Source: Tetraselmis striata
Lineage: Eukaryota; Chlorophyta; Chlorodendrophyceae; Chlorodendrales; Chlorodendraceae
DNA length: 64,000 nucleotides
Direction: 5' to 3'
NCBI GenBank assembly: GCA_006384855.1
Contig: VCJN01003039.1
Coordinates: forward strand, 186,001 to 250,000
Shown here: positions 19,530-57,894 of the stretch, one piece after another
How positions within the stretch are numbered: position 1 is the stretch's first letter
Layout: each line of letters starts with the position of its first letter
Position numbers and translations under genes: made by a program
The notes under the pieces: model-generated
What the model was told of the DNA's origin: nothing
Database searches by the model: none
Seen by the model: the letters and a program-made list of their open reading frames with translations, nothing else

Positions 19530-19945
19530 GCCAAACGCTCTCGTCGCGTGGCGGCCCTGGCCATTGGACCTAGCTGGGCCGATACGCAGTAAGTGGCGGG
19601 TCAGGGGCAGGGCCCGCCAGCGGCATACATGTCGCCGAGTTTGGCAGCTGCCGCTGGCGATGCGGGCGAGGGCTGGCCTACGCCTAGCGATAGCCACGCG
19701 GGGGAGAGCGGCGGGCAGGGAGCCGGCGCGTCGGCAGCCACACTCTCTGGACTGGCGCTAGCATTAGGCGGTGGTGAGGGCGTGCCGGATTCCAGCGGCT
19801 CGGAGGCTAAAGGCGCGACAACCACCATGCCCATTGTAAGAGATGCGGAAAAGGCGGGATGGAGGGCAGGGTGGAGAGAGGGGGGGGGGGGGGGGTTGGC
19901 CGTGCTGCGATATAATGTTGTGGTGCACCTTTGCATTTTTACACG
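19530..19945. repeat. Non-satellite block, copy 2 of the higher-order repeat
   Basis: Second copy of the block at 17050-17460. It differs by scattered substitutions and small indels, including different G-run lengths near its end. Confidence 0.75.
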
Positions 19946-28696: not shown

Positions 28697-31600
28697 ATGG
28701 CCGATGCGGGCGCGGCGCAGAGCGCTGTGCTGACTGCCCTGGCGGCGCTTCACTCGCCGGAGACGCCCCCCGCGGCGCGCAAGGAAGCGGGCGACTGGCT
28801 GGTGGCGTTCCGGGGGCAGAACGTCGCCTGGGAGGTGCGCCGCGGCATGCTGGACGGCGGCTGCTGATCTCAACTCGACAGATCACTGACTGGTGGCGCA
28901 GTAGTCAGCGAACCTGAGCCGGCCGACCCCCCCCCCCCCCCCCTCCCTCCCCCCCCCCCCGCCCCCCGTCGTGCGCTGGCGCCCCAACAGGTCTCGCACA
29001 GCCTGCTTTCCGGCGGCCAACAGGCGCCTGAGTCACGCCTGTTCGCCGCGCAGACGCTGAGGTTCAAGGTGCGCCTGCTCACCCTCTTGCTCCCGGCTGC
29101 ATTAACAGCCCCCCCCCCCCCCCCCCCCCTGGGGGGCTAAATTTGCACTCCCGCTGGGCCCTTGGCCGCCCTATTTGTGTAGGTCGCCAACCAGCTGGGC
29201 GGCCTGCCCGCAGCCGAGCGCGCCTCCCTGCGCGACAGCGTGCTGGGCCACCTGCAGGCGGTGGCAACTGGCAGCAGCAGCGGCGGGGAGCTCACGGTAC
29301 GGCAGCTGTGCTTGGTACTGGCCGAGCTGGTGCTGCAGTGGGGCGGCTGGGAGGCGCCGCTCGCGGACTGCGGCTCCCGTCTGCTCAGCTCCACCTTCCA
29401 CGAGTTCCTGCAGGTGTTGGCGGAGGAGACACAGAGTGCGGTCCCCCCCCCCCCCCCCCCGCCGGCCCGTGGCTATCAATCACCATGCTGCGGCAGCTGA
29501 GGGGCCACACTTCCGGGCGGGGCTGTGCAGATCTGGCAGGGCTGGGCTCCCAGACGGCTATGACCGCCCGATGCCGCGTGGACTCCTGGGCGCCCTCCGT
29601 CATGCAGCACCTTACCTCTGTAGCGGGCGCCGCGCTAGCCGGGCCGCCAGCGACGGGCGCGCCAGTGCTGGGCCGCGTCATGCTCGTGCTGGCCGCCTGG
29701 GCACGGCTGGGCTGCGTCGCCCACCTGCCCGAGTCGGACATGCAGCACCTGCTGTACGCCGCTCTCCAGGTGCCGCTCTCCCCGGCGCCATGCAATGCCC
29801 CCCTTCCCCCCCCCCCCCCCCCCCTCTTCCTTCCCGTTGTATAAACCATCGTGCTTGCCAACGCCTGCCTCCAGGCCGCGACGGCGGCGGGGGAGGGCGG
29901 CAGCGGCTGGGGCAGCGCAGCAGAGCCGGGCGCGGGTGCGCTGCTGGACGTCCTGGAGCGCCCGCCAGAAGGCATCGAGGCCTTTGTGGCGCCGCACATG
30001 GTGCAGCTCCCGCACGCGGCGCAGAGGGCGGCGCAGGCGGGCGATGCGGGCGCCGCCTCGGCCATCATTCACGTGAGTTAGCCAGGCCGGGTGCCCTGCC
30101 TGCCTCTGCGCTTGCTCTCCCCTCCACCCCTCTACTCGCGGTCATGCTTGTGAGCGAGTCTCCTTACCCCCTTGCCTCTCTGCGCCCCGCAGGCATATGC
30201 GAGCTTCTGCCAGGGCAACCTGCCCTCCCTGCTTAGTGGACCCTACAGCGAGGCGCTACGCGGGGGGCTGCTGCAGCTGGCGCTCCTACCCAGCCGTGAC
30301 CACCTCCCCCAGCCGCTGGCGCTGACCGCGCTGGAGGCGCGTCCCCTTCTACCTGTGCTCCCCCTCCCCCCCTTGTTCGCCGACCTGCCCTGGCGCCCAG
30401 TCTAACTGCATGGGCGCATGCTTGCGCAGGCAGCAGGCTGCCTGATGGAATATTCGGTGGACATTGGGGGCAACGGGGCAGAGAAGGAGGACCCTGTGGC
30501 CTTTATGGCGCGGCAGCTGTTATCCGGCCTGCTGCCCAACCTGACCATCCCGATGGAGGATGCACAGGACGCTCACTCCCCGGGTACCAGCCTGAGGTAA
30601 CCCCCCCCACTACCCCCCCACTACCCCCCCCCCCCCCCCCCACTACCCCCCCCCCCCCCCACTACGCCCCCCCCCCCCCCCCCCCCCCCCCCCCGACTCT
30701 GGCCCTCCTCTGGAGCAACAAAGAGAGAGGGGAGAGAGAGAGAGAAGGGGGTGGGGTGGGGTGGGGGGGCTTAAATGTGGAACACAGCCATGCACACTTT
30801 TGCGCGGTACCTCAGTCACATAAAGGGTATAAAAGCACCGAGTCGGGTGTGCACATATAGGCCGCCTGCTTATAATCATGTGTGTATGTGTGCCTTGGTG
30901 CCTTCCTAACGAAGAGCAGGCTGTGATGATACCTGTGAGATGCTGCAATGCACTCTCCCCCTCACCCCCCAAACCCTCTCCCCCCTGGGCAGGCCTGCTG
31001 CAGCTGATGCTCTTGCTGGCGCCGCACGCCTGCTGGGAGTTGCAGCCTGCTCCGAAGAGCTCGAGGCGTCTCGGCAGCGACAGGTCAGCAATAGCGCAGG
31101 CCCCAGCGGCGACACAGCCACCTGGCGATGGCAGTTGGCGGAGGCGAGCCTGTTTGCGCACTGCGCATGCGCGGAGGGGACCTGGGGCTCGCTGGCGCCA
31201 ATGAATCGGGCAACCGCAGGCGGCCTGTGCTCGCTGGCGCGCAGGCTCGGGACAGCGCTGTCGGCTGAGGCGGGAGGCGGCCCGCCGAGCGTGCAGCGCC
31301 TTGGCAGCCTGTGGCTCATGCGATGGGTCTCGGCTGCGCTAGACCCCATCCTGCGCGTGGACTCCAGCTGCGGCCCACAGGAGCTGGCCACGGCGCTGGA
31401 ATTCTCCGTGTTTGGGCTGCAGGTGAGGCCAGGTCGACTTGACCCTTCATGAGCGGCAACCGCAGGGTGCTCTGGGGTTGCGTTGCACAGCTGCTCAGCT
31501 GCTGGACTTGAGCTCCCTTGGTGCCCGGTAGTTTGGCTCGCGTTGCGTCACACTCGGTGTCGATGAGGGTCTATGCTGTTGGGAGCGGGGTTGCGGGTTG

Positions 31601-34290
31601 GGGATGGGGGGCGCCGTCTGTTGCGTTGCCCCTGACTGCGCACGGTCATAGGCGCAGCTGCCATGCAGGCAGGGCTGCACAGTGACAGGTGTGGTTTCCG
31701 TAGGCAGCCTGTGCTGTGCTCCGGAAGGAGGAGCCAGGGGAGGAGCGCGGCGCGCAGTCGTCAGCGAGTAAGCTGGCGCTGCGGTGCGCCATGGGTGCGG
31801 TGGACCTGCACAAGGCAATGCAAAGCCGGAGCGCCGGCGGCGCGGACAATTCCGAGGTGTTGCTGTCGGGCGCGCGTGAGATGCTGTCGCTGTCAGACGC
31901 GCAGCTGATGCACGGCGACCCGCAGATGCAGGTGAGCCCCTGGGCAGTACCTACCCCGCTGTCATGTCATGTGCTTTCCCCCCGCATCCCAAGACATCCC
32001 AAGCGCCCAACCCCTACTATTCATAAAGTAAAGTAAAGTTCGTACCGGGACATCGGCCGAAGCCGCCCCAGCACTTGACCTCTTGCGCCAACTGCAGTCG
32101 TAGGTCTGGCATAGCCCGTAGACCATTGCCTCATTCGAACCCCGAAGGGCTAATGCATCAACCGGGGAAACCCAGGACACGCCGGGACAATACTGCCGAA
32201 AATACATCGGCCAGGAATCGAACCCGGGACCTCTCGCGGACGAGACGACCGCTCGACCGAGCGGACAAGGGATCTACCTTGTGTTCATATGGTCTACAGA
32301 CGCCTCGGATGCACTGCCCCTGGCGACGCAGGTGGTTCTGGTTGGAGCAGCAGTGGCCCTGTCACAAGTCACGGCGGGCGGGGTCGTGGACCTCATACAC
32401 GCGATGCTGCAGCCGTGCGAGCCCACGCTGCAGCACGCGACGTCGCTGCTGGCATCTCGCCGCAGCAATAGCACCGCGGCCAGTGAGGCTGGCGACGACC
32501 CCTTTCGCGTGGCCAGCTGCGCGGTCACGCGTGTTTACGCAGTCGTCCGCACGCTGGTTGAGATGGAGAGCTCAGAGCCTGGGAGCGGGTGCGCCGCAGG
32601 TAGGGGTGGATCAGTGACTACCTGCCGTGGCAGCATGTTGGTGTTGCACCTGGCTGCGGCTGACTGGATGGACGCGTGTGTGCCGCGCAGATCAGCAAGA
32701 GCTGGATCAGGGCCGGCAGGCGGCGCTGTCTCGAGCGGTTGCGCTGCTCGCATCGTGCTGGCCGATGCTGCGTGGCCTGATGGCCGGCCAAGCGACGCCC
32801 GCGGGGTCGCCATCGCACGCCAAGTTTGTGGATGCGGCCTGTCGTGCAGCGGCGGTGGCGATGCGCGGTGACGGGAAGGCGTTCCTACCCGCGCTGCATG
32901 GCCTGTTGCAGCAGGTTCACACTGCACTACAGGCTGCCTCCCAGCGCGATGTGGCAGCGTCAGAGACGGCGGCGTCGCTGCTGGTGTGCGCCACACCACC
33001 TGATCTATCACCCTGTGATTCGCCGGCAGGGTGCCTTCTGGGGCAGGGATGCCAGGGGCAGTGTTGGTCGCCACCCACAAAGCTTCGTGATATCTGTTCC
33101 ATATCTCCATGTGCGAGGTGCTTGTTAGTCGTTGTACATGGAAGCGCAACAGCATCGGATCTCAGAGGCTGCTGCTCTGTGCGGTTGTGCCTGCGCAGCG
33201 CTGCCTAGCCGCGGCTGTGGAGGTTTACGGCGGCTGGAACTGGGGCAGTGGGGGCTGGCACTCGATGGCCGCCAGCGCTGGCTCGGACCCAGAGATGGCG
33301 CAGGCGCTGGTTCTGTCTGCAATGGCGGAGGCCAACGCGGCGCCCATTGTGCAGCAGATTGCCACCGCCGCCGCCGCAGAGGCCGTGCCCGACCTCGCTG
33401 TCGCCATGTGCGCGGTGGATACATGCCTTGCGCGCTTCTGCGTGCCAGTGCTGCCTCAGGAGGCCATGACCGCTGCCACAGGGCAGCTGCTGCAGGCCGC
33501 GTTGCTGCGTGCTGCCGCCTGTTCGCCCTGCAACCACAAGGTCGGGAGGCCCTAGCTGCGCCATCCTGTATGAGCAATGTCACCCCAATATTTTATATCC
33601 ATCAATTCCACTTATGCAGCGATTACTAACCGCCACCATCTCCCTTCTCTCTCTCTCTCCCTCTCTCTCTCTCCTCCTTGTTGCACCCGGCTGACTTGCG
33701 AACTGCATGCCGCTCGGCCAGAATGTTGCTCTGGCTGGCCTCTCCGCGAGCTCCGCCTTGATATCTTGCGGCGGGGGGCCGCAGCTAGCGGGACTGATGC
33801 AACAGGTGCTGCCTGCGTGCGGCGTGAGCATGGTCAGCGGCCTACTGGGCTCCTTGTTGGGCGCCGCGCCGCTGACTCGGCTCCACAAGGCTACCTCGCT
33901 GCTGGTGGAGCTCGTGGCTCTGCTTGGCCAGGTGACGCAGCAAGCGGACGTTGCCGCCTCCCTTGCCAAGGAGTGGCTCCGGGCCGCGCTGGGTACCATG
34001 CAGCGAGGCGTGCTCCTCCAGGGTGCGGCTCCACTCCCGTCTCATTCGATGTCTCCCTCTGCGCCCCACAAACAAAGAGAGCTGAATTTGCGTCTTGTTG
34101 TTGGGCGGCAGGGGAGGACAAGGAACTGCTGGAGGAATGGGGACCGCACCTGCATGCGCTGGCGCTGATGGCCGGGAGCCCTGACAGGTGGGGCGGCGCG
34201 CGGGCATCAGACCTCGTCGCCAGCCAGCACGGGCAGCGCCTGAAGAAGGCCATGCGGTCTTTTATTCAGCGGCACAGCGCAGCTACGTGA
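28697..34290 (+). CDS. Transportin-3 / importin-13-like nuclear import receptor
   Basis: Karyopherin-beta family receptor; in known members it carries cargo such as SR splicing factors into the nucleus under Ran control. The modelled exons are 28697-28834, 28991-29068, 29183-29440, 29554-29769, 29875-30072, 30193-30336, 30430-30596, 30993-31422, 31704-31931, 32332-32599, 32691-32983, 33199-33540, 33722-34022 and 34112-34290, with all phases agreeing (1,079 residues; family about 920-960). The N-terminus (VLTALAALHS, ARKEAGDWLVAF, AWE) matches the importin N-terminal helix pair; exon 2 has SRLFAAQTLRFK and exon 3 has LRDSVLGHL and QLCLVLAELVLQW, the most diagnostic stretches. The C-terminal half is HEAT-like but diverged. 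ATG 28697 gives the family start. Donors of exons 3 and 6 are uncertain: exon 3 could end at 29413, and exon 6 needs a GC donor or a shifted GT-AG pair. Poly-C runs follow several donors. Confidence 0.8.
32022..32275 (-). mobile_element. tRNA-derived SINE, antisense in transportin-like intron 9
   Basis: Read on the minus strand, the head has a tRNA-like A-box region (CGCTCGGTCGAGCGG) and a good B box (GGGTTCGATTCC). Its T-arm pairs fully if one G-T is allowed. The far end is a short-repeat tail (ACTTT)3. The length of about 250 bp fits a SINE. Exact ends and a target duplication were not resolved. Confidence 0.6.
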
Positions 34291-36416
34291 CGGGACGCTG
34301 TACTCCTTTCCAAGCCGAGGAAGCTGGGTAGAGACTGATCCGCACGAACAACAAGGCGATCCCACTGATTGCCCAGATTGTGTCAGTAATGTGGATATGC
34401 ACTGTGGACGCTCCTCCTACCTGTAGCTGGGCAGCCTTTAGGTTAGGGAGGCAATGCTGGAATCGACGCCCTGGCCAGCTTCATCTGCAGGTCACATCGT
34501 GTCAACCGTGATACGGAACCTGTTCTTTGCAATGTGTTGTGATAGATAGCGCTGCAGCTGCAATTTCATTTCGTGAGGATTATGTGGCCAGAAAATGAGG
34601 TCATTGTCGCCAGCATTGCATTCATTGACAGATAACCCCCCCCCCCCCCCCCCCCCCCACACACCTTTTCCCCCCTCTGAATTGCCGTGGTCTGCGACAA
34701 GACGCATCAGACATCGTGCTTTGGTACTGCTACAAGGTACTGATGTGGCGTCACTTCATCAGTGAATTAAAAAACATCGCCTACCAGTAATCCTTATACA
34801 CTATAGTTACGTTCCTTCTCCGCCGCTTTTTATGTTGTTAAGACAGTAGTACTTTATTCAGCATTGAAACACGTGTGGATATTTGGCGGAGAGGTATCTA
34901 CGGAGTACCTGCCGCCAGCATGGCCCACCACCCACCCCGTTTCGCCGTCGGCATCACGCCGCCGCAACGCACCGAAACCCCCATCGCCCCAACAACAATG
35001 GACCATGAGATGCAAAACTCCCCGGCGCCGTTCGCGCCGGTTCCAACCTTGGCCAACACGGCCATAGCCCGTGAGATACAGCCCCTCCGCCCTCTTCCCC
35101 GCCGAAAATTTCGGGCGTGACAGGTCCGTGGCCCTAGCCGCACTACCTTTGCCCACTGGCTCACCCATTGCATCTGATGGTGATCGACGAGCCGGGGTTC
35201 GCATCCAGAGTCGCCCACCAGGTCGCTAATCCTTAACGGCACTTTAACGGCCGGCCACCCGATCGATGCTGCCAGCCGCGCCGAGACCCAGAGGCGGGTG
35301 GTGGGGGAGAACACTCGGTGCTGGGGCTACATCCCCGCTGCCGGCGAGCGCCAAGTCTACTCCATGCCGTTGCAGACAATGCAGGCTCGGCAACCGGGGG
35401 CACATCAGACCAGGCGCGCGGCCACTACTTCCATGTGCCGCGTGAGGAAGCACGTCGTGTGCAACGACATGCCGACAGCAGGGGGACATCTCTATCGGAG
35501 CAGCTCCTCGACCAACACGAACTCCCGAATTCACCCTGGGTAGATGCGGAAGACCCGATAGACGACTCCGAACGCATGCCCCATACCGTTTGGATCGAGA
35601 GCCCGCACTTTTCGGGACTCACGGGTGAGGAAATCCACCAGCACATGGCCACCACGCTTCAGAACCCGTAAACAACGACGGGGCTAGGAGGCCCGCGTCG
35701 ACCCCCGTGAGCTAGAAGCATCAAAGCGCGACGCAACGAGAGACTAGGGCACCCGCGTCGAGCAAGGCGGCACGATGCCGCCAGAGCAGCGGGCTGAGGA
35801 GATCGGTGCGGCAATTGGTTGATACTTCCGAGGGCAAAGCAACACAAAATGTTGCCCTAGCAGCAAGCGCGTGTCCACACGACGCGCTATGCAAGAGCCC
35901 CCACCTCTCGCCGGTGGAGGCCAACAACGCGTTGGGGTAACCTGGCACATCAGGGACCCCGACCGCCCTCGAAACCAACAACTGCAGCACTGCCGGCGGG
36001 ACGCCTCGGCTGCCTTAGCCAGAGCGCCGCAACTCTACTGGTGGGGAAGTAGCGGAAGGGGAATGGGGTCCGTGGGGGCGCCCTAGTTCGAACTGCCGGG
36101 ATAGCGGGCGGTGGCTATGAATAGTAGGAACAATGAATAGGGTTTCATGGGGCCCTAAAAGCACTAGGAAGGAGGATGCTCGGCCACAGTGGACTAGGGT
36201 ATGGGTAGGGACGGGGAGGAGGTCCACCATAAATCAAAAAAGGAAAATATAACGGAGACGGGGTACGCCCGCTAGTTGAGGGAACTTGCCCTATTGAGAG
36301 GGTTGCACGCTACGCACTTCTCTAATAAGCGGACTATCCGTGTTCGTGCTGTCGGGCCGTATCAGATAACTTGCATCAAACACTAGTGGACAACCAAGAA
36401 CAAAGGTGTAGGACGC
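34291..36416. other. Gene-free stretch after the transportin gene
   Basis: A C-run (34636-34658) lies about 345 bases after the stop, possibly in the 3' UTR. A 117-codon plus-strand frame at 35318-35671 (ending QHMATTLQNP) looks protein-like but unassigned. It may be old element sequence, as everything downstream to 39 kb is. Confidence 0.45.
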
Positions 36417-36829
36417 GACTTGGGCGGTCGCGTACGCCGACCACGTGGCACGTTGCTCTGGGGGCGACTCCAATCACGGCGCAAACGAATGGGCGGCACA
36501 TGGCCTTTCCGACGTTTGCCACGACGTGAAGTCCGCCGTGGGCGTGGGTTTCCAGATCCTCACGGACCCGTCGGTGCTTGTTTGTCTTCCGAAGGGCAGC
36601 GACCGCCGGCCGGCCGATGATGGGCTTTTTGGGTATGGCGGTATCCGCGGGAACGCGGCTGCTGCTGTCGATACCACCATTGCTCCTATCCTCGGCGTGT
36701 CAAGCTCGGATCCAACGACTGCATTGCGAGCCGCAGAGCGCATCAAAATCCAAGAGTATGACGAGGGTGCCCGAAACGCCGCCGGCATGCTTCGCCAAAA
36801 ATATGTAGAGGTCGGCAGAATGCTGTAAG
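36417..36829 (+). pseudogene. Fragment of retroelement-type ORF (nuclease-like C-terminal domain)
   Basis: Over ~380 bp this matches 63437-63815 at about 90% nucleotide identity, and the encoded residues agree (HVARCSGG, HDVKSA, LPKGSD, DTTIAPILG, AAER, KIQ, YDEG). The pattern ADx..GGxxGN..DTT..AAE..K..Y resembles the restriction-like endonuclease tail found on many algal and protist reverse-transcriptase proteins. Both edges are abrupt and the frame ends soon after the similarity stops. It is a truncated copy with no promoter or N-terminus. Confidence 0.55.
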
Positions 36830-37159
36830 GATTATATCTACTACAGTCTACTACCAGGCGACTACTTTTCAGCAATAATTTTGATTTATTTGAAGGGTTT
36901 CTACCATTCGCCATCCGTACCGGTGCCCGTACTGACACATACGTATGAATCTGACGTGGCCATGTTGTAAATGTCTTAGATTTTCGCGCTTGAACAACTA
37001 ACTTTGTTCATCTTGGAAGCCGCGGTGAAAATCGTAGTTTGAAATAGTGTTTGAAAGCGCGCGCGCCAGCGCGGGCTCCGGACGGACAACCCTGGTTAAC
37101 TGGTTGGCTACAGTAATATACGGTCACATGAACATGCCTGGAGAGGTTTGCAGTACTTA

Positions 37160-38960: not shown

Positions 38961-39383
38961 GTGCCGTTCTACATCGCCATTTCAGTGGTGAAGCACTAAG
39001 ACTGCCCGGCGGTCCATTAATGGCGTGGCCACTGCCGGTGCAGAGGCCGCAAGCAGTCGATGTCGACACCCGCATATCATAATATATGAGGGTTATTGAG
39101 GGAGGGATAAAGGAAACCCCAAGAACACAGCTCCATATAAAACAGAACAACCGCTGCTACTGTGTAAATCGAGTACGCGATCGTCGTACTTGTCGTACGT
39201 TACCCGTAATGAATCCGCCTTCTCCACGGGTACCCGGGGTAGGGTGCTAGCAACACTGCGGCAACAGTACATGGTAGCGGTGCGCAACATTTCCGACACC
39301 TACATCGTTTCTGACGCCGTTTCCGACCAGCGACGTACCAGTATAAGATATATTCCGACTACACCGGCGACGACGAGTAAAGG

Positions 39384-39415
39384 TTTTTTCCCCGCCCCCG
39401 GGACATGACTGGCAT
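39384..39415. repeat. Dispersed motif CCCGGGACA..ACTGG, copy 2
   Basis: Short version of the block at 28441-28500 and 57119-57170. It ends the fossil-rich region and lies 40 bases before the TIR element. Confidence 0.45.
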
Positions 39416-39453
39416 AAGTAAGAATATTCTCACTACAAGGTAGTTTATTCACA

Positions 39454-41653: not shown

Positions 41654-44600
41654 ATGGCGGCCGTCCGTGGACAGATGTTTCGGGCGCGCAACCCCGCCGG
41701 CGGCGCGCGGCAGTCAGACGTCACGGTTGTGGTCACCGCCCACGACGCGTCGCCGCTGAAGAAGGGACACGGGTACGGAGTCGACTTCGAAAATGGTGCG
41801 GCGCGAGTGGATGATGGCAGCTTCCAGAGCAGGTTCACCAGGCTTGCGCACTATTTGCACGCCCCCACTCACTCTTCCACCATCGCGGTCTTCCGGATGC
41901 TGTACGCCTTGAGGTCGGTCCCAACAGGCCACCTCCACCCCGGCGCTTGCACCGCTTGCTTTCTGCGAGGCCCGGACTCACCGACTGCTGATGCATAATG
42001 CATGATGTGATTGTTATCAGCCGCCGTCGCGCTCGCCACCTCTGCATTGTAACGCATGCGTCCTGCTGGGTCCTTGCAGCGTTCTGGCCCAGCTATACAA
42101 GTGGGACAACATGTTCCTGAAGTTCTCGGTGCGCCCCAGCCCTCGCATGCCACCCCGGGCAACGTCTCCGCCAGTCTTCCATGGATTTCTGACATGTCGC
42201 TCTGCCGGCATTTCCCCTGCTGGACATACAGAAATCGATTCTGGTGCTTCCTTATCCTGGCTTCTCGTGGATCCGCCCCCTCAGCCCTGAGGGAGGCTTC
42301 CTGTTGATCTCCGTATGCAAGTTGGCGTCATTTTGCCAGCTCATCGGGTTCATGACACCCGTGGCAACCACGATCGCGTGGTTTACCTTCACCTGGCTCT
42401 TCAACATCTGCGAGAGCAACTTCAATAACCATTACATCCTCATGTGCCACATGCTGTTCCTTGGCATGTTCCTGCAGTGGGGCCACTGGTTCAGCATCGA
42501 TCGGCTGATTGGTCGCTGGAGAGGGTGAGGCAGCTCTTCTCCCCCTGCCCCTTCTCCCTGCGAGCGCCTTCCATAACGCGCAGAGTGGCCCACATGGGAC
42601 TTCACTCACTCAGTATTTCGGCACTATCGGTGCTTTGCAGGCGGCCAGTGGATTCCCATGTCCCTTTTTGGAACCTGCTGCTGTTGCGCATGATCATGAC
42701 ACTCCCCTATCTGTATGGCTCCTTTGCTAAGGTAAGCGCCACGGCCTGCAAGCGTCACAGGGCTCAACCGAGTCTAGGCATTTAGGGCTGATTCGCCGGA
42801 CTGGCTTTCCATCCCAATGCAGATGAACTCCGACTGGCTGTTCCGCGCGGAGCCGGTCACGATGTGGTTTAAGGACCGTGGCGGCCTATACTCCCATCCG
42901 CTGTTCCCCTGGTTCATCTGCTGGACAGGCATGTTGTTCGATCTGACGGTACGCCCCATACACACCCATCATTGCTGGACTCTGCCCCCCACCCACCCTC
43001 TACAAGTTGAAAGGAATGCGCTGGAAGCGATTGCTGACCCTGTATGCGCTGGCTGCTACGTGCCACAGATCGGCTTCTTCCTTTTCTACCGTCCGACTCG
43101 CTACTTGATTGGCTTCCCAGGGGCTCTCTGCTTCAATTTCAGCAACAAGATCATGTGACACCCCCCCCCCCCCCCCCCTCATTTTCTTCTTCAGCCAGGG
43201 GAACAATTTGCAAGCGGATCACCTGCTCACAAATGCACTTGTCACTGGCTTCTGCGTCATGCGCTGCTGCGTAATCCTGAGCGTCCACCACCCCCTGCAT
43301 GCAGGTTCAACATTGGGGTGTTCCCCTTTATGATGGTCTGCTCGCTGACTCTCTTCTTGGAGCCAAATGTCCCCGCCCGCATCGTGTCCTGGATCACACG
43401 GGTCAACGTGAGCAACACCTCTGCTTTGGTCTTGGCTCGGGTGCATTGTCAGGGGCAACACTGTTTTCAGGGCGCAACGTTTTTTCCGGGAAGGTTGTGA
43501 CTGGCGGATGGATGTGCCATGTAGGTGGATGAGAGCGCCATGGCAACCAAGCCCGCCAAGCCAGCGGAGAAGACGTGGCACTGGGGGCTGACACGCACAC
43601 AGTGGTTCGGCATGCTCTTTGTGGGCTGCTTTCTGACCTTCCACTCGATGTTCCCCTTCCGCGAGAAGGTGATGTACCCAGGTAACCCTTCATGGCACGA
43701 GGAAGGACACTTTGGTGAGCGCCCCGCGGTTGTATCGGCGCAGGGGCGGCTGCCTGCTGTTGGTTATGGGAGCTTGCCACAACAAACGAGAACAAACGCC
43801 TGCGGCTGATGTTAATGCAGGTGCATGGCACATGAAGCTGCGCACTAAGAAGGGCTTTGTCAATCTCAACTTGGTGGACTCCACCGGGCAGAACTACACA
43901 ATTGACCCCAAGATGGACCCGTTTGTCCACAGGTCACAGGTGCGACGTTCTGAGGCTGCCCAACTGTACGACCTCAGTGTGTCCTGGGAGCATGCCGGTA
44001 GCTTGTAGCGATCCATTATCCAGGTCCCTGCCGCATTGACTCACTGTGGAACACTGCTTTGCTACAGAATAACTACTTCATGAAGCCCCACTGCCTGATT
44101 TTGTACGTGGGGCGCCTGAAGCAAATTTTTGAGGCAGCGGGCACACCGCTGCAGTCTGTGATGGCAAACAACTGCTTCGGCTTGAACAGCCGGCCGGGTC
44201 ATCACCTGTACAAGGAGGACGTGAACCTGCTGGACTTTGTCGGCAAGTGTCCCAGCCACCAGCGGATGCATGCTCTGGGAGTTTGGGCTTCGCAATTATA
44301 TGCGGCAGTAGTGCCTCACCGGGCTCTGCTGTTTGCCGGACGCAGGCAAGTATGAGCTCTTTGGCGTATCGGGTGCGCGCCAGTCGCCCAACAGCCCTTA
44401 CAAGTGGCTCTGGAAGGACGAGGAGGGCCCAAGCTGCGATATCAGACAACCCTCAGATGCAAGGGATGATGCGAAATATGTGAGCACATGTCCTGCTATA
44501 TGCCATTTGACTTGTTGTGTCGTTCTTTTCGAGGCATCGTTATAGTTGTATTCGGAGAAGGGGGGTCACTGAGGCACCCGGAGCGAAAGTGACACTGCTT

Positions 44601-44761: not shown

Positions 44762-44973
44762 CGGGCAGTTCTACCACAGGCTGCTTCGCCGGCCCTGCTG
44801 CTACGGCTGCAGAATATATGCGACTCTAGAGGGTTGAGATTTATGTAGATTTTTCCATGCAGGCGTCTGTTTTGAAATGATGACCCCTTTGTATGCATAA
44901 GTTCAACAAATGTTATTTGACGCATCGTGCCGCATTCTTGTGCTCATTAATTAGCTTTATGGCTCACAGCACA

Positions 44974-44978
44974 TGTAA
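44974..44978 (+). terminator. TGTAA polyadenylation-type signal of the carboxylase gene
   Basis: TGTAA lies 213 bases after the stop, followed by an A-rich stretch. Confidence 0.5.
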
Positions 44979-46235: not shown

Positions 46236-48720
46236 ATGGCGCCCGCGGGCGGCGTGACCCCGTACGAGGTTCGTCAGCGCCGGAAGGACAAGGTGCTGAC
46301 CACGCTCGGCAAGCTGGACGACCGCGATACGCAGGCGGCCGCGGTGACAGAGATCGCGGACTTAGTGAGGGTGAGTGCGCCGATGATGCGCGGTCCGGGC
46401 TCAGGCAAGCCGCCGAGGCGGACGCTTCGCCGGGCAAAAGCAACGGGGTCTCCCGCTGCGTTGACTCCCTGCTGCTGGCTGACTGACTGTCCGCAGGCTC
46501 TGGACGCTGAGGGCCTGGGCGTGCTGGTCACCTGCGTGTGCAATATCGGCGATAAGCAGAAGGTCTACTCCCGGAAGGTGAGGGGACGCCCAGCTCTGCA
46601 GTGGAGCTGAGACCGTGGCGAAGGGGGGGGGGGGGGGGATGCTAACTTTTAGTCGCTCCTATTTTAGCTTCTGCATTGCTGGGTCCGCCCACCCAGCTCT
46701 CTGGCACTGACAGCCCCCCGGTCGCCAATATATCCAGGAATGTGTCCGCTTGCTGGGCCATCTGGCCTCGGAGCGCTGCCCTGTGGCCAGGGAGGCGGTG
46801 CAGCAGCCGTATGTCGGTAAAATCATTGCTGCCGTCCGCAGCCGATTCAAGGTGAGCCCGCCGCTGGCGCTGCTGCCACTGCCAATGCCGCTGTCGCAGC
46901 GCTGGCCCGGTGTCCTGTGCTCAAGCTTCTGAGCAGGTGTCATGTGGCCTGAACGTCCTCCTGAGGGGCAGGCAAAGAGGCAGGGAGTAGATCGCATTTG
47001 GTCACACTGCGTTGTGGATAAATTAGGTGGCGTGCCAGCTGCGCACAATGGTTCGCGTTGGATGGCTGGCATGCTGGCTGGATTGGGGGGAAGAGTGGGG
47101 TGGGGAGGGGCATCTAAGCGATGTACAGCGTGGGGCAAAGCAGGCTTGCAGGGTACTGCTGCCCCAGGGAGTTCATAGGCGCTATTGAGGCAGCCGGAGG
47201 GAGAAAATGGAGTGGGAAGGGGCTGGTGACTGAGAGGGGGAGAGGGAGAGCAGTGACTCAAGAGGGGGAGGGGGGGGAACATCACTATTCCGGAAGATTG
47301 ACTGACCCCTTTCGCTTGGTTGGCCTCCTGACAGGACCAGGACTCCACAGTCCGTGACGCTGCCTCAGACGCGCTAGGCTGTATTGCGGGGGGTCTGGCC
47401 ATCCACAGCGAGAGGACGGTGGGCCTCCCCCCCCCCCCCCCCCCCCCCCTCTCCCCCCCTCCCTGGCCTCCCGGTTTTCTCCCGTGCCTGGCATTTTTGC
47501 ACCCACTGGCAGCGGCGCTATCAATCAGCAACAGCCGCTCACTGGCGGGCATGCGCATGCTGCAGCTGGACCATGAGCACCCGCTGGTCAAGGGGCTCAT
47601 TGACTCGCTCAAAGAGTCCAACCACAAAGAGGTTCAGACTGCAGCGGCAGATGCGCTGCGCAAGGTATCCCCCTCCCCCCCCCTTACTTCTCCCATCTCC
47701 TCCTCTTCCATTTCTCTTCTCTCCTTGACAAAAGTCACACTTGCTATAAGGATTAGTACACAGCGCTGGATGGGTAAGACACACACGTGAGAGTCGTCAT
47801 AAAAGCCGGCCCACCTACAAGAACCCGCACCGTGAGAATCCAATTGGGCTTACGTGCAACCTATTGGAACGCCCACTATAGTCATGCTAGCTACTGCTTT
47901 GCCTATTTCTGACCTCTGACAGAGTAACTTCAGGTAGGGCAGGGACTTAGTCTCGGTGTTCTTGCAACCGAGTTGGCATTCTGTGACAGCTGTGGTATTC
48001 AAGCTAAGGTTGCCTGTGCCACTCATGCAGGCGGTGCCGCACCTGGAGGTGACTGCGCCCCTTGTGAGAACTATTGTGAAGCTGCTTGGAAGCAAGACAT
48101 TCGTCGCCAGTGGGGCACTGCTGGCCGCGCTGGCGGGCATGCAGGACATAGAGGCGCCGGACCAAAACGACAAGCCGGTGGTCCGCCCCCCCCCCCCCCC
48201 CCCCCCCCCCCCCCCTGCTCTTCCTTCCCCCTCTACCCGGCTGAGATACGAAAACAAAACGAGGTGCAAAGGTCGCTATTGTTGGCAGAAGCTGGCCTGC
48301 TGCGGATACTTAGGGGCTGGATATTCTGTCTGCTGCAGCTGCTTGTCGAGGAGGAGAAGATTGTAGGCATGGTTAAGGTGAGCAGCCGGCAAACTGCGCT
48401 TGGATCTCCCGTGCCCCTTCCGGGCCACCTGCGTCACCTGCCCTTGAGCGGGGACTGCCCTGTGCTCAGCTTTTCACCGCCTTCTGTGTGCCGCCGCGCA
48501 GTACGTGCCTGAGCTCATGATCACGCACGTCCCCGCCATTGTGGGCAGCCCTGCGGGGGGCGGCTTGCCCGCCACCGGAATTGCGCTGCACCTGCAAAGC
48601 AAGGAGTGGACCACGCGGCGCAGCGCCTGCGAGGTGCGCCAGCTGCTGCCAGGCGCAACGCCAGACAGCATGCAGCTCTCCACCTTGGACGCTGAATGAA
48701 CCCTCCCCCGTGTCCTCCCC

Positions 48721-48751
<31 letters not shown>

Positions 48752-49125
48752 CTGCCATCTGCACCTTGCACTTCACTTGGTGGTGTAGGCCGTCTATGCC
48801 CTTGCCGCGGTGCTGGGCCCCAAGATGGACGGCGCCGTGTGCGCTCCACTTCCGGCATCCGACGCGGAGCGCACCTCAGCCCGCGCGCTGCAGCTGCTCT
48901 CCCCGATGAAATTTGATCGGGTGCGCCGCGTGCATCTCTCCTCCTGGACTCTCCAGCCCAAGTGCATGGTAGGACTGCACGAAGCTTTACTCTGTCCTCC
49001 AGATGTGATCTTGACTGGGGCGCCGTGACCCTGGCATGCATCGGTAGGTGGAGCTGGTGCGCAGGCGGGCCATCGCTGCCATTGCTGTGCTGACAGAGCT
49101 GCAGGTAAGCCCCCCTATCCCCCCC

Positions 49126-49156
<31 letters not shown>

Positions 49157-50310
49157 ACACACACACACCCAGCCCCCTTCTCTGCTATGTCAACCCTATG
49201 CCGTTCTCCCACGCCTACCCTTTCCTCTCACCGGCTGTACGTTGAGGCCCCGCCACGCTCGGCCGGACTGCGGCCCGCAGGAGTTTCTGGATGCCAACTT
49301 GCCCTATGATACCTGGTCCTGGAGCAACAGCCCCCGTGCGCGCCCTGACCCGGACGCACACTCTACACAGTGCATTCCCCCCCTTCCTTCTGTCCCGCGC
49401 ACTGAGCCCTTTTACTCACTGCTTCTGGTAGTCGCCGGCGATGGGGTCCATAACGGCAAGGAGACCCGCAAACCTGGGGGTCTGCAGTCCGGCACGATAA
49501 AGGTACTGACTGCTACATATCAGATGTGGGTGGCGCTTGTCAGCGCTGCGTGTGCGCTGTCATTATGGAGTCTCACGCTCACGGGCCGCTTGCCCTCTCC
49601 CACCAGGAGCGCTTCATGAAGAAGTCCGCCGCTGGTGATGGGGATGGGGACGGCGATGTTGACATTATCGTCAAGGCGCAGGTGGTGCAGCCGCGCAGCC
49701 GCCCTCAGACGGCGCCACCCAGGCGCACGCCCCCGGAGTCCCCCAGCAAGGGCACCCAGGCGGGGCCCGACCAGGCCGGCTCAGCGTCCAGGGCCTCCGC
49801 TGTTTCGCAGTCCGTGGATGGACCGCTGCCCAAGGCAGCCTCCCGGAGCCCAGGGAAGGTGAACTGGCGGCTCGGCCCTGCGTATGAGTGCCGCCTTGCC
49901 CACAGCCCCCTCCGCCGTGCCTTGCTGTTAGCTGCCGTAATTGTTACCCGAATGTGAGCTGGGGCTTTTGTCTCCCCCTTTTTACTCCAGGCGGCTGCCC
50001 AGGCTGGCGCTCGGCCACAGGTTATCCCCCCCCCCCCCCCCCCCCTCCCCTACCACTGGTTGCGAAGGATGTTCGGAATAAGCCTTTTCCGAAGCAGGAT
50101 GTATTAAAGGATATTAGCACTAACGGTGCGATTGCGAGAACCGCTCCGTACTACCATAAAGGATCCAAGCATGCCATGTCTTCCAAACACTCACTTCATG
50201 CGGTCAGCGGACCCAGCGACTGCCATCCCTCCTTCGGGAAGGACCCCCAAGAGCTACACAAGTAGGATTTTAAGAGGAAAAAAATTTGCACACATGATTC
50301 CATGTTATTC

Positions 50311-50343
<33 letters not shown>

Positions 50344-52672
50344 CCCCTCTTCCCCCTTGCCCCTCCTGGGTCTCCCGGACACATTGCAGACTGCCAGACC
50401 AGCAGCGAGCGAGCCTTTTGTGCCCGACCTGATCATCAAGGCCAAGCCACGGGTGGGTGCTTGCTCCCTCCCCTCTGCCCCCCTGATGCTGCCGCTGAAC
50501 TGACGCTCGCTACCTTACCCTGCACTCGCGGCGGCCGGCACAGTGCGTGCCGCTGCCGCCCTTTCTAAACGTGCACCCGTGCTGTGCAGCCCGAGAAGCC
50601 GCCAGCACCAGCGCCACCAGCGGAGCCAGAGCGCGCGCCTGGGCAGTGGGCAACCACCCGTGACGCAGGACCGCCGCCCAGTCAGGTGGCGTGCCTACCC
50701 CGCTACCCCGCAACTGATAGCCGAGCTCGGCTTGCTGTCCCTGCCGCTGACTGATGACGGGACTCTCTGCTCTGGGCAGGCTGCCGCCCCTGTTGCTTCC
50801 AATCCTCCGGCGGCCAAGCAGTCCACTGAGGGCGGCCAGCCAACGTCGCCGCAGCAGCGGATGCAGGCGAGCCGCCCTGCTACCACAGACCCCCCTGCTG
50901 CCACTGCTGCGCCCGCCGCTGTTCTGGACTTATGATTGCCTGTTGCAGCGCTCACAAGCTTCTGACAAGCTGCTCCGGCACGTTCCAGGGCGGCATGGTC
51001 GCTGTGCCGGCGGCGGAGTGGGCCGGAGTGCTGCAGCGGCTGGCGCAGCTCGAGGGCTCGCAGTCGCGCATCCAGACGATGGAGGACCAGCAGTCGCGCA
51101 TGCTGGGCATGGTGGAGAACTTCGCGCTGAACACGCAGAACGCCTTTGTGGCAGTTGAGGTGCGTTGACGCTTTGCAAACCCCCTCCTCCCGTGACGCAG
51201 CTGTCGTAGCGAGATGGACTCCCGGCAATCCCCGCGCTGGTGGCATCTTTGCATGAGGGGGCTGATATAACCTGTTGAATAAGCTGAGTCGAAACTGACT
51301 GGATGCTGACCTCTGGATGCCGCGTTAAGTATAAGCAACACATGTTTGTCATGGTTGTCTGTGCCGACACTGCGTAAATCAGGTTTCAGTAAAACTCATG
51401 ATTGTGAAGCCTTACTGGAGATACCTGCACGAACATTTTGCTATTCAGACCTTGGGATAGATAAACATTAGGGGCTGCCAGGCGTTCATGTGCGCCTCAC
51501 CCATGCCGCTTGCCTGTTGTGAGTGCAGGCGCGGGTGACGGCGCTGGAGATGGTGGTGGATGATCTCGCAAGGGCCAACACATCCGTGGAAAGCTCAGGA
51601 GCCCCCGACGCGCAGGACCCGTCAGAGTTTTTCAACGCCACCTTTGCGCCCGACCTCCCGCCCGGAAGCGCGCAGAGCGGGGAGGTGCAGGAGGCCACGG
51701 AGCTGGGCGCGCAGTACGCCGCCGCAATGAAGGGCTTCAGGGGCGGCGAGCGGGGCAGCCTGGAGGAGCTGCTGCGCCGGACGGGGCCGCAGTGGAAGCA
51801 CATGTCGGAGGGCACCGCGCTACAGGTGCTGGAGGCGATGGAGCAGCTAGTGAAGGTGCCCCCCCCCCCCCCCCCCTCAGGGACCTTTCTCTCAGCAACC
51901 ATATGACGACATCAAATGTGGGAGTGACTAACGACAGTTGTAGGATATAGAATACCCCATCTTCAAGTGGAACAAATTCAATTCAATACAGAGCAGTCAT
52001 ATATAGTACCATATGCATCAAACAACTCTCTCCCTCTCTACACACACGCACGCGCACACATCCGCTTTTATAAAAGCATGCATCATTATATACAATATCA
52101 ATCGCTCGCTCTTTCAGAAGCTGACTCCAGTCGCACGTGTTGTTATGTCATTGTTCGCTGTTTTACGCATCGCCTTATGCGGTCCCGTCTCGATGCAGGA
52201 GGACCCAATCACCACGCTACCCGGCGTGCTGCCCTGGCTGTGGCAGCTGGCCGACGAGGACATCGTGCGGCTCCCCGTGCCGTCGGGTCTCGCCGCCAGT
52301 GTGGTGGTGGCCCTGAAGGAGGTCCCGGAGGACTGCGCCGCGCTTGTGGGCGGCAACCTGCCCCTCCTCGTCTCCACGCTCGAGTGGCTGTGGAGCCTGA
52401 GCGCGCCGTCGCCCTCACCGCCGCCGGCCAGCACTCGGCCCCACCACAGGTCCGCCATCCACGCCCACGCGCCAGCCACTCCGCCCAGCGGCCTGCCGCC
52501 GGTTTCGCCGCTGTCGGTGCACGCCGCGCAGCAGCGCGCGGCGGCTCCCGACGCGAGCACACCGCGCGGGTCGCACCGCCGCCGCGCCTCCAAGGATGGC
52601 ATCCACGCGATGCAGGCGCAGCTGAATGCAATGCAGGCGGAGCTCGTCAATAGCCCGCGCGTGCGTGGCTAA
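46236..52672 (+). CDS. TORTIFOLIA1/SPIRAL2-like microtubule-associated protein
   Basis: Plant-lineage TOG/HEAT protein that binds microtubules and minus ends. Modelled exons: 46236-46370, 46497-46577, 46738-46851, 47335-47418, 47566-47664, 48031-48177, 48339-48377, 48502-48633, 48789-48920, 49048-49104, 49281-49335, 49432-49502, 49607-49858, 49991-50020, 50390-50452, 50590-50685, 50780-50866 (or 50920), 50989-51159, 51529-51855, 52199-52672; 881 residues against 864 in Arabidopsis SPR2. The N-terminal TOG HEAT repeats begin VLTTLGKLDDRDTQ and include DQDSTVRDAASDALGCIA, KEWTTRRSACEA and MKFDRVE. A Pro/Ala-rich linker follows. Then comes the family's coiled-coil block (LAQLEGSQSRIQTMEDQQSR, ARVTALEMVVDDLA) and C-terminal domain (GVLPWLWQLA, LVSTLEWLWSL). 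Exon 14 is only 30 bases. The donors of exons 6 and 17 are ambiguous. Many introns carry poly-C runs next to the donor. Convergent with the next gene. Confidence 0.85.
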
Positions 52673-53751
52673 GCCCGGCTACACGCGCAGCGGACACAGC
52701 CTGTCGAGGGGCGGGCTGGACATGGCCGCCGCCAGCCGAGCCGCGCTGTGCCATGGCGCATCGGCATGCCGTCGACTCTTATTCGTTTTTAAAAGTACAG
52801 TAGATTCAGATCCCAGAACCCCCGGCTCCACTTGCGTGCTGCCCAGGCTGTCCCCCAGTGATGGTCCCCACTATTTGCAGTTTGCTTTGTGTGTGGGAAG
52901 GCTGCACCGGTCCATTTTCTCCGCCAGTGCCAGAGGCATCTGGCGTTTGTAGCTTGTGCAGGTGGGTCAGCCAGTCGGCGTTGATACACACGTCCCGCCA
53001 AGAAATGAACCGCTGGGCCGTGTAGTAATTTTTAGCATGATTCCTCCGGCATTGTCGGGTGGAATACCTGTAGTATGTGATGAAGCTACTACAACAGGGG
53101 AGCCGACACGGTTACAAGAACACCGCAGATAAGAACCAGGTATGCCTGCCACAGATGAAATATAGATAAAACTATTTCCGGCGCTAGGGTGAATGTTATT
53201 CTTTGGTTGCATGCACGCCCAATCCGAGGCCTGGGCTAAGGGTTATTAGTCGCACGTCGGCACCCGTACCACAGTACGCACCGGTGGATACTATGTATTC
53301 TCTGTGGGGTCCGTCCCCTCTGTCTCCGCTTGCCTAAGGCACAAACGCTTCCCGACATCCTGATGTGCGGTCTGTCCTGTGTCCATCATCCATGCCAACA
53401 AAGCGCTTGGGAGCTGCCTGAATCGCATTGCCACCGGTCGTGTTGGTTCTGCCCCCTACGCCGCTTGTGATTCAGCCATGATGACAGCATGCGGTGCGGT
53501 CGGCGCTCAAACCCCACCTGGCTAACACATCCAAGCGAATCGAGCTGTAGCCTGGCCACACGGCTCTCAGTCATCTGTACAGGTTACAGGGCAATCGTGC
53601 GCGACATCAGGGTGTCGCTGACGGCCCCTTTTCGGGACGGGTTTTCTTTCGGCACTGCCGGGCTGTGGACCCTGGGCCGCAGTGCTAGGTCTACTTGCGG
53701 CAGCACTGCCTGCACCTTCCCTGGCAGCTCTTCTGCAGCGGGCGTAACCAG
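52673..53751. other. Convergent intergenic region
   Basis: 3' ends of two genes meet here. The only signal recognised is a TGTAA on the minus strand. No further gene is supported. Confidence 0.5.
53583..53587 (-). terminator. TGTAA polyadenylation-type signal of the TMEM237-like gene
   Basis: TTACA on the plus strand reads TGTAA in gene sense, 165 bases after the stop. Confidence 0.45.
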
Positions 53752-56744
53752 CTAGTGTCCGTCAGGCATGACGGTGTTGCCGGGTATCGGGCCCAGGGTG
53801 CGGCGGTCCAGGGAGCCCATGCCCGCGGATTCGGCGGCGCCCTGCGGGCCCGGAACGGAGACCACCGGGACGGTGCTGCCGTCCGGCAGGCGCTGCATGG
53901 CGATGGGGACCCCGCCCGGCCGCGGCTGCGTGGTGAAGCGCCAGTACACCATGGTGCTGATGGGCGAAAACTCCAGTGCTGCCTGCGCAACACCGGCGCG
54001 GTGCTGTTAGGAAGCAGACGCGCCTGCGGTGGGCACGGTGAACTGGGGCCAGTGATGTGCGCGAGACGAGTCGGCTTTATTCGTATTCGCGCTATCATGA
54101 CATCCTTAGTTACGGGTGCAGGCATTGTCACATGGTGTATCAGGAATCGCAGTGCCCTTGTGGCTTTACCGACGTAGGTGATTGTCGTACCAGGTTATTA
54201 CGAAAACTTCACACGGCATGTGTAGGTACCCCAAGCACCCCAATTATAAAGGGGCAAAACGGGCGGGTTTCCCATCAAAGCGCAGGCAGCCGCTCCTAAC
54301 ATTGCCCCGTGACCAATAAATGCGCCAGGAGCGACTCACCCCAATTGGTAAATAACTGGGATAAAGACATACCGAGGCTTACACACTTTGGGTCTGGGCA
54401 TAAGTATTGCTTTCGATCCCCCTTGCCCTGCAAATAGGGGATATACGATCAAACTGTCGAGATACTTCAGAACACTGGTACAACACCGGTTCACCGACGC
54501 AAATCAGTTAGTTACTTGTGGCATGCGCTAACTCAGCTAGATGATACTGTTAGGTGGGCATCCTGCGCATTCTTTCATGCATTCATCAACTGCCACCAAG
54601 CTGGGCTGTGGGCCGTGGGGTGGGTGTACTCGTACCAGCGCCCAGGCGACGAAGACAAGCACCATTCGGGTCACGCTGAGCGCGTGCCACACTTGCAGCT
54701 TGCTCATGAAGTCGTCCGTCAGCGCCATGTCGTAATAGTCTGCACAGATGCCGGGCAGTTGTGATCAGCAGGGGGAGGGGGGGGGGGGTGGGGGGGGTTG
54801 AATTGCGAGTGTGGGGGTGTGGGGGTCATGAGCACGAGTAGGGGCGGGGAAGCTTGCCTGGGATGCGCATCGAGTTGTAGGTGAGCAGGTCGTCGTAGGG
54901 GGTGATCACGACCGAGATGACGAACGCGATGAAGTAGAGAACGACCAGCACTGCGTCAAAGGCGCGCTGCCGCGAGCCGTAGGGCTTCCAGTCCCACATG
55001 GTGTTCCTGGCGTATCTGCAGCGCCCAGCAAGGGGGGAGAGGGGGAGTATGAGAGGGGGTGCGCCATCGTGGGGCGCGGAAGGTGGGAGGAGGGGCGGGC
55101 TGGAGGGCGGGCGCACACTTGTTGATGGTGGCCACCAGAGCAAAGCAGACCAGGACGTAGTAGAAGCGGTTGAGCACCATCGCCATGGGGGAGTAGTAGC
55201 GCAGGAAGCCGGTGAGGTTTATGTTGGGGCTGGAAAAGTAGGTCATCATCAGGTTGGTGAAGCCCAGGCCGCCCAGCAGGCCCTGGCGCCGCAGCAATGT
55301 TTGGCGGTTTGCTCAGGCAGTAGCCATCAGAAGCAGCTATCTCCAGCCAAAATTATGGGTGGATGGGTCTGGGTTTGGGTGTGTACATGTAAAGATATGT
55401 ATTGGGAGGGGGGGGGGGGGGGGGGGGGGCAGCGAACCTGCGACAGCAAGGATACGTAAGCTGCAAAGCTCTGGAAGCCATCCACCATCTTCTGCAGCAC
55501 CGCAATCTGACCGCCCGTGTCGTCTGCCGGCCCCCACTCATCCTCTGCCTCCGGCGCCCTCCTCTGCCACAGGCGACCCAGCAGCCCCGGCTCCTTGTCC
55601 CGCACCGTCACGCGCTTGAACCTGTTGGTGGGCTGCTCCACGTATACGGTGTCGGTGCGACCCGCGGGAGCTACGCCACCACCGGCTGTGGTCAGCAGCC
55701 CATTCTCCTCATTGTACTGCCCAGTGGCAAGAACGACGGCAAATTGGGGGGGGGGGGGGGGGGGGGGGGGGTCAGTCGCGCGTGCCAGCACCAGCTTCCA
55801 CAACGAATAATAGATAATCTTGCCCTACAGATAGTAATAGAATAATAGATAATCTTGCCACAGCAAATGGTTCGGGGATGCGCGTGCAGCCCCAGCAGAT
55901 GGTGACGCCCGGCGGCTGAGAGGAAAGCGCTGGAGGAAAGTAGTGCGAAAGAGGCTTGTGGTGACATCTGTCCGGGGGGATGCTCACGGCGTAGGTGCTG
56001 GCGTTCATGGCGGGCGCTTGCTCCGCGGACGCGCGCGTGGTGGCCTCAAGCCGGCGCGAGGCCGCCGCGCCGCTGTAGAAGCGGGACGTTTTCTGCGGCG
56101 ACTCGACGCGCGGCAGCGGCGGCAGAAGCTGTGACCCGATGCCTTCGCGCGGCTCCGTCTCGCCCGTGCTCCGCCGGCTGGTGCGACCGCTGCCCGCGCC
56201 CTCGCTGGCCGCCTCCCTCCGCTCCGTCCGCGCCGCCCGCTCCAGCTGATCCCCCGCCTCCGCCCCATTGCTGCTGCGCCTGGATCCGGGGCCACCGCTA
56301 CCTGTGCCTCTGGCGACAGCCGCGGCGCGTCGAGCCTCGCGGCGCTCCGCTCGCGAGGACGCCGACGTGCCGCTCTCGCTGGGCGGCGCTCGAGAGTCGG
56401 CGCTCACGCTGCGGCTGCGGCTGCCAGCAGATGGCCGCTCCTGCCGCACAGGTCGCCCGTCGGGGTCACGCACCAGCCGACGCGTCACGGGTGCAGGCGG
56501 CGCCTCCCCCCCAGCAGCCTCTCGGCGCACGCTGGTGCCGGCCTCCGCGGGTCGTGCGGTGGGCGCTGGCTCGTCCGCCACGCCACGGGCACCCTGCGGA
56601 GGCGGCAGCCCGCCGCCACCCCGCGGTGGTCGCCCACCCTGCGACGACAAACGCCACGGGGTCAGACGCGCGGGAGGTGGGGGCAGGCAGCGAGTAGACA
56701 CGCCGCGAGCAAGAGCTCACCTGCACTCCATTCAGTGCAGACAT
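53752..56744 (-). CDS. TMEM237-like four-helix membrane protein (ciliary transition zone)
   Basis: In animals TMEM237 is a transition-zone protein needed for ciliary gating. Modelled exons in gene order: 56744-56721, 56638-55988, 55716-55438, 55282-55119, 55015-54858, 54739-54636, 53982-53752; phases agree, 536 residues (human 408). The first ~230 residues are Arg/Ser/Ala-rich and disordered, as in the family. VYVEQPTNRFKRVTV resembles the family's VFVEKSRRFQ. Four helices follow with matching order and spacing: GLLGGLGFTNLMMTYF, MVLNRFYYVLVCFALVATI, VLVVLYFIAFVISVVITPY, TRMVLVFVAWALV. The C-terminal tail is 76 residues. Intron 5 uses a GC donor (GCAAGC, 54857). Introns 2 and 3 carry sense-strand poly-C (plus-strand G) runs. 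Gene structure is firm; the TMEM237 name rests on remembered similarity and topology. Its presence implies a ciliated organism. Confidence 0.65.
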
Positions 56745-57890: not shown

Positions 57891-57894
57891 CAGA

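Follow-up and report, generated by a model that had tools for sequence, protein, structure and literature searches.

The introns of four neighbouring genes in the analysed stretch of Tetraselmis striata DNA (64,000 nt, hereafter the window; contig VCJN01003039.1, positions 186,001 to 250,000) carry long runs of cytosine on the sense strand, many of them close behind the 5' splice site, and this pattern is too strong for chance in these four genes of one window. Runs of 12 or more Cs appear in 15 of the 49 introns and runs of 12 or more Gs in one (sign test p = 0.0005), and p does not exceed 0.012 whichever gene is omitted; for runs of 8 or more the counts are 16 and 2 introns (p = 0.0013, and ≤0.023 with one gene out). 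The same bias is seen in TMEM237, which is encoded on the minus strand, so that it follows transcription, as the original prediction had proposed. The coding exons of these genes contain no C or G run as long as 10. A comparison set of 36,624 nt, which excludes the spans of the four genes and positions 1–9244 and may contain unmodelled genes, has six C runs and four G runs of 12 or more, giving 1.2 expected per strand in the 8,829 nt of intron. The 15 introns hold 19 sense C runs in total, about 16 times this expectation, and the single sense G run is close to it; runs sharing an intron are not independent, and the per-intron counts are the 15 and 1 given above. Overall G+C does not explain the excess, since the masked introns have a value of 58% versus 56.5%. 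Selection against sense G runs is not supported as the sole cause (1 found, 1.2 expected), an expectation of this size being too small to show depletion.

Four gene models were curated, for a transportin-3-like protein (TNPO), a VKGC-like carboxylase, a SPIRAL2/TORTIFOLIA1-like protein (SPR2) and TMEM237, with 13, 11, 19 and 6 introns, respectively. Draft junctions were obtained with a simple, region-limited HMM in which C and G runs were scored neutrally, and some exons were missed or misplaced at this stage; every junction was afterwards placed manually, with reading frame, splice consensus and homology as criteria, and confirmed by script, choices by eye being left at TNPO introns 3 and 6 and SPR2 introns 6 and 17. 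When run across the entire window, automatic gene finding joined too many genes together and was given up. Each of the four coding sequences runs uninterrupted from ATG to stop over the 49 junctions (script-checked). Introns occur about once per 190 coding bases, and two introns are of the GC-AG type (VKGC intron 10, 44243–44345, and TMEM237 intron 5, 54857–54740). SPR2 matches TOR1L1_N (E 8.9e-42) and TORTIFOLIA1-type chains (E 1.1e-25), and its C-terminal match to TOR1L1_C (E 9.4e-5) is under the curated cut-off of that family. The VKGC-like protein matches HTTM (E 2e-36), the VKGC lumenal domain (E 2.2e-16) and VKGC chains (E 8e-19), TMEM237 its own domain (E 3.9e-14), and TNPO transportin-3 chains over residues 12–219 (E 2.1e-12) together with IBN_N (E 8.8e-4, under its cut-off). 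Homology crosses six of the ten junctions that have a tract next to the donor, namely VKGC intron 6, SPR2 introns 4 and 5 and TMEM237 intron 3 and, more weakly, SPR2 intron 19 and TNPO intron 3; the junctions of TNPO intron 7 and SPR2 introns 6, 10 and 14 are based on frame and consensus. A scan for other GT dinucleotides in the same frame, reaching from 30 nt upstream of the donor as far as 12 nt beyond the end of the first run and with the acceptor fixed, returned none at five of these ten donors and one or two nearby at the other five.

The original prediction had named nine donor-adjacent tracts, starting 2 to 14 nt past the donor. All nine are present in the places it had given, all within introns, and a tenth was found in SPR2 intron 5 (C9 at +11); over the ten introns, 3 to 14 intron bases, rather than 2 to 14, precede the run. 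In TNPO intron 3 (29436–29530, plus strand, tract part 29436–29460) the C18 run proposed at 29443 was confirmed, while the donor proposed with it (GTCCCC at 29441) probably lies 5 nt too far downstream. The donor GTGCGG at 29436, which places the run at +8, is preferred because of its better consensus fit and a checked frame; the alternative GTCCCC with a later acceptor apparently keeps the frame too, as judged by eye. This junction corresponds to residue 156, and the transportin-3 alignment spans it but is poor there. TNPO intron 7 (30597–30992, plus strand, tract part 30597–30694; donor GTAACC, set by frame and consensus only) has C8 from +5 followed by C18, C15 and C28 with ACTA between them, a 22-nt unit in 3.9 copies. 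VKGC intron 6 (43155–43304, plus strand, tract part 43155–43178) has donor GTGACA and C18 from +7 (43161), and at its junction, which has no other GT in the same frame, the alignment with VKGC chains is ungapped.

Six of these introns belong to SPR2, on the plus strand. Intron 4 (47419–47565, tract part 47419–47449) has donor GTGGGC and C23 from +9 (47427), and the TORTIFOLIA1-type alignment crosses its junction with a short gap. In intron 5 (47665–48030, tract part 47665–47683; donor GTATCC) the run is interrupted and ends in the C9 mentioned above, and the alignment crosses the junction with an insertion in the TORTIFOLIA1-type chain. Intron 6 (48178–48338, tract part 48178–48215) has donor GTGGTC, set by frame only, and C30 from +9 (48186); an alternative donor 3 nt later (GTCCGC) puts the run at +6, and the homologous stretch stops 4 residues short of the junction. 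Intron 10 (49105–49280, tract part 49105–49142), whose donor GTAAGC was set by frame and has a strong consensus, shows C6, then C24 from +15 (49119) and then (CA)n. Intron 14 (50021–50389, tract part 50021–50045; donor GTTATC, frame only) has C20 from +6 (50026) and is preceded by an exon of 30 nt with no homology. Intron 19 (51856–52198, tract part 51856–51876) has donor GTGCCC and C18 from +4 (51859), and the TOR1L1_C match below its cut-off spans the junction. Finally, TMEM237 intron 3 (55437–55283, minus strand, tract part 55408–55437) has donor GTTCGC and sense C22 from +9, with the TMEM237 domain match spanning the junction.

Other tracts are found deeper in the introns. The further sense C runs named earlier do all lie inside introns: C17 from +93 in TNPO intron 1 (28927–28960, plus strand, not donor-adjacent), where a second run, C12 at 28949, was added; C21 from +41 in TNPO intron 2 (29109–29129, plus strand); C19 from +37 in TNPO intron 4 (29806–29824, plus strand); C23 from +93 in SPR2 intron 8 (48726–48748, plus strand); C31 from +292 in SPR2 intron 14, the second run of this intron, 47 nt from the acceptor (50312–50342, plus strand); and C26 in TMEM237 intron 2 (55746–55771, minus strand), which lies 29 nt from the acceptor and is a counter-example to donor proximity. 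A sense C12 run from +70, after C8 at +61, was also added in the GC-AG intron 5 of TMEM237 (54777–54788, minus strand). The one tract of opposite sense that had been reported, G16 from +46 in SPR2 intron 2 (46623–46638, plus strand), is indeed the sole sense G run of 12 or more among the 49 introns; a shorter one, G8, is present in SPR2 intron 3. Outside the models, sense C runs at 27843, 34636 and 57551 are possibly in UTRs or UTR introns.

The proposed closeness of the tracts to donors holds overall and is mainly carried by SPR2: the effect is clear with this gene, and weak, at the level of a suggestive trend, without it. Of the 15 introns, 8 have their first C run of 12 or more starting by +15, versus 1.65 expected by random placement (p = 2e-5 to 1.2e-4 across three randomisations), and with runs of 8 or more the first one starts by +15 in 10 of 16 introns (1.68 expected), which is 10 of all 49. 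Without SPR2 the counts are 3/9 for runs of 12 or more (p = 0.09) and 4/9 for runs of 8 or more (p = 0.016). The first run of 12 or more lies at +37 or beyond in 6 of the 15 tract introns; among the first runs that start within +4 to +45, 10 of 12 do so by +15 (uniform placement, p = 0.0001). Outside the four genes a GT is found within 15 nt upstream of 7 of the 10 runs read in the C orientation, so that closeness to any GT is no evidence in itself, and the donor claim rests on exon ends anchored by reading frame and, in roughly half of the ten cases, also by homology. The pattern GT, four bases, C12 has seven matches, five in introns of the four genes and two outside.

A closer inspection of the 31 introns with neither a C nor a G run of 8 or more showed that the bias is not confined to the tracts. 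In these tract-free introns C minus G amounts to +0.158 (p = 0.00014) over the first 40 nt behind the donor hexamer and to +0.061 (p = 0.018) over the 40 nt that precede the final four bases, the donor side being the higher of the two (paired p = 0.008); in the 40 exon bases upstream of the donor it is 0.000 (p = 0.96). Runs of four or more Cs outnumber those of Gs by 21:1 in the donor-side 40 nt and by 10:2 in the acceptor-side 40 nt. The C content is about 41–42% at +7 to +30 and 28% in mid-intron, and T is not raised, so that the excess is one of C and not of pyrimidine in general. The long tracts thus look like the extreme end of a donor-side sense C-excess.

The donors next to tracts may differ from the others in their intronic bases. 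Of the 10 tract-adjacent donors 4 have a G at +5, as do 33 of the other 39 (p = 0.008, in a post hoc test of one of four positions examined), a result that moves to p = 0.03 with the alternative donor of SPR2 intron 6 or with SPR2 intron 5 regrouped. The donor score over +3 to +5 is lower at tract-adjacent donors (p = 0.012); over the whole donor, −3 to +6, there is no significant difference (p = 0.19), nor do the exonic bases show any weakening. The shortage of G at +5 would be in keeping with tracts that support weak donors. However, the base that replaces the G is a C in four of the six cases, so that a growing tract may have eaten into the donor, and the loss of the +5 G fits both tract-supported weak donors and erosion of the donor by the tract just as well. 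The tract-free introns with weak +5 donors are not richer in C than the remaining ones (0.376, n = 5, versus 0.411, n = 26; p = 0.61), which counts against compensation.

These observations are compatible with an intronic splicing enhancer, one of the meanings suggested in the original prediction, and the reading that we favour, with a probability of about 40%, is that the donor-side C-rich stretch is a putative splicing-enhancer context overgrown by slippage. In this scenario the C-rich stretch behind the donor would act as an enhancer in its RNA form, where a poly(C)-binding protein of the KH type, or a similar one, may bind it and help U1 to settle on the donor. Replication slippage would expand short C seeds into tracts of 18–30 nt, and these could be tolerated or even favoured at this place owing to their sense-strand orientation and to a position that lies clear of both the donor hexamer and the branch point.

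There are precedents for an effect of such sequences. In the human SMN2 intron 7 minigene experiments described in PMC8789036, Cs placed after position 10 increased exon 7 inclusion in a length-dependent manner and with an effect at position 10 comparable to that of Us, whereas poly-C at +15 was repressive unless an upstream silencer motif formed at the junction was broken; C effects of this kind are ascribed in that report to PCBP1/2, by attribution rather than by test. A contrary case is that of CDK2 exon 5, where, in the experiments described in PMC5829739, disruption of a C-rich element 20 nt past the donor raised baseline inclusion and the element did not mediate PCBP control. The SMN2 minigene and PCBP1/2-controlled exons share with the algal introns a sense poly-C a few nucleotides past the donor; the minigene tracts are engineered, whereas those described here are natural, mostly pure runs of 18–30 nt with a putative function, and the PCBP1/2-controlled exons have C/U motifs of a few nucleotides, as opposed to runs in many introns of adjacent genes.

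U-rich tracts of the TIA-1/Nam8 type occur after weak donors. Like the C tracts, they lie directly behind the donor hexamer and are tied to donors without a +5 G, but here the base is C and T is not enriched, and a U-rich binder need not bind C. Word matching over titles and the beginnings of abstracts in openly licensed PMC articles found no description of donor-adjacent poly-C in algal introns, which is weak evidence of novelty. A further step, which we consider unlikely, would be that this green-algal lineage has shifted part of 5' splice-site recognition into the sense poly-C tract, leaving donors free to lose the +5 G, and that tracts of variable length make splicing efficiency tunable.

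Nearly as likely as the enhancer context is passive slippage, in which the sense strand of the introns is compositionally C-rich, seeds lie near the donor and functionless microsatellites grow from them in introns that tolerate them. Seeds are indeed abundant, with 81 C runs of 4–7 against 43 such G runs in the 49 introns, and starting from seeds of 6–7 the share of runs of 8 or more is alike in intron C (22:16) and in the comparison DNA (19:21; p = 0.38). The absence from coding exons of any C or G run reaching 10 and the ten runs of 12 or more in 36.6 kb outside the genes also fit passive growth. Counted from seeds of 4–7, however, intron C has the longer tail, with a ratio of long runs to seeds of 22:81 versus 19:294 in the comparison DNA (p = 3e-5) and 2:43 for intron G (p = 0.014), and the difference between intron C and comparison DNA in runs of 12 or more versus 6–11 is weak (p = 0.034). 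Tract starts crowd the interval from +4 to +15 and are closer to the donor than seeds are, 10/16 starting by +15 versus 12/81 (p = 0.0002); with first runs only, 10/16 compares with 6/23 of the C-tract-free introns having a C run of 4 or more (p = 0.046), and by +10 the numbers are 8/16 and 5/23 (p = 0.09). The seed results are therefore mixed and fit both function and passive growth, and the latter leaves the sense C-excess itself unexplained. Ordinary mononucleotide C/G microsatellites resemble the tracts in being pure runs, some of them compound (here with ACTA or CA), and differ from them in that the strand and position of the latter are biased to gene sense and donor. Quite improbable in our judgement, although in line with a bias that follows transcription in the minus-strand gene as well, is growth driven by a G-rich template past the exon ends, through G-quadruplexes or pausing, or selection of such a template for co-transcriptional splicing. 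All three runs of 12 or more that lie outside the genes and within 1 kb of one are sense C (27843, 34636 and 57551). C-sense transcripts are not of the usual R-loop sense, which was counted against this explanation, and it predicts no donor peak unless pausing peaks there. As to an i-motif or G-quadruplex element, also suggested in the original prediction, the sequence of TNPO intron 7, with its several C/G runs, would by inspection permit one.

The remaining explanations fare worse. That assembly errors or wrong gene models created the pattern is very improbable: tract lengths are uncertain since long homopolymers are error-prone, the gene models are predictions, a GT is near most runs outside the genes too and half of the adjacent donors have other GTs in frame, but sequencing error would not be expected to produce a sense bias that appears in genes of either orientation and also in introns free of tracts, the coding sequences are open across all 49 junctions, and the other half of the adjacent donors have no same-frame alternative, with homology crossing six junctions. 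The footprint of recent mobile-element insertions bringing a donor and poly-C with them, also raised in the original prediction, found no support among these introns and is scarcely credible. Introners are reported from green algae (PMC9860276) and, like the tracts, involve features repeated at intron ends; the families described in that report are of similar introns, some of them without target-site duplications and terminal inverted repeats. The runs studied here do abut donors, but the introns share no sequence once the tracts are masked: the sole match below E 1e-3 among the 49 is a GA/CT simple repeat between TNPO introns 7 and 12, apart from which no match of introns to the rest of the window was found, junctions of tract introns match at 5.7 of 14 positions versus 5.2 in other introns (p = 0.34), and intron lengths and phases vary. 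An RNA bridge, in which pairing between the C tract and a G-rich partner close to the acceptor would fold the intron, is likewise extremely unlikely. AC/GT-repeat introns of fish are bridged by pairing of complementary repeats and also have a simple repeat beside the donor, while most introns here have no partner repeat near the acceptor. TNPO intron 7 does contain GGGGGTGGGGTGGGGTGGGGGGG (+151 to +173), which pairs with a C run in the fold predicted for 30590–30800; this G-rich stretch is far from the acceptor, however, and the fold is no better than those of shuffled sequences (z −0.83, 41/200 as good). A run of four or more Gs lies downstream of the tract in 5 of the 16 C-tract introns, versus anywhere in 15 of the 33 others.

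If the pattern extends genome-wide, the tracts would constitute a natural, strand-specific and donor-anchored class of microsatellites and a test case for C-tract-driven splicing outside animals and for its tuning by slippage. If they are passive, microsatellites of this alga still follow gene sense, and caution is called for in the functional reading of strand-biased repeats.

Several other features of the window were recorded. The search for relatives returned a single bacterial locus among genome contigs (L001, 29% identical), which was unusable, and none among viral contigs; no Rfam family reached the gathering score in the window. TNPO intron 9 contains a region (32020–32270) with a likeness, by eye, to tRNA-derived elements, including a B-box-like GAACCCGGGACC on the plus strand; ARAGORN found no tRNA in the window, this region included. 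Positions 466–9244 of the plus strand hold two long overlapping ORFs of 1795 and 1146 amino acids, in which a REJ domain (E 5.8e-12) comes after filamin repeats (E 6.5e-33), so that a large near-intronless gene, or two, stands beside the intron-rich ones. A satellite with a unit of about 184–188 nt in many diverged copies occupies 17451–21591, and a 25/50-nt tandem repeat lies upstream of TMEM237 (57890–58152). Two inverted-repeat arms of 92 nt (23695–23786 and 24709–24800), 99% complementary and 922 nt apart, may belong to a mobile element, and a dispersed repeat of 246 nt occurs in two copies, 91% identical, at 36418–36663 and 63443–63688.
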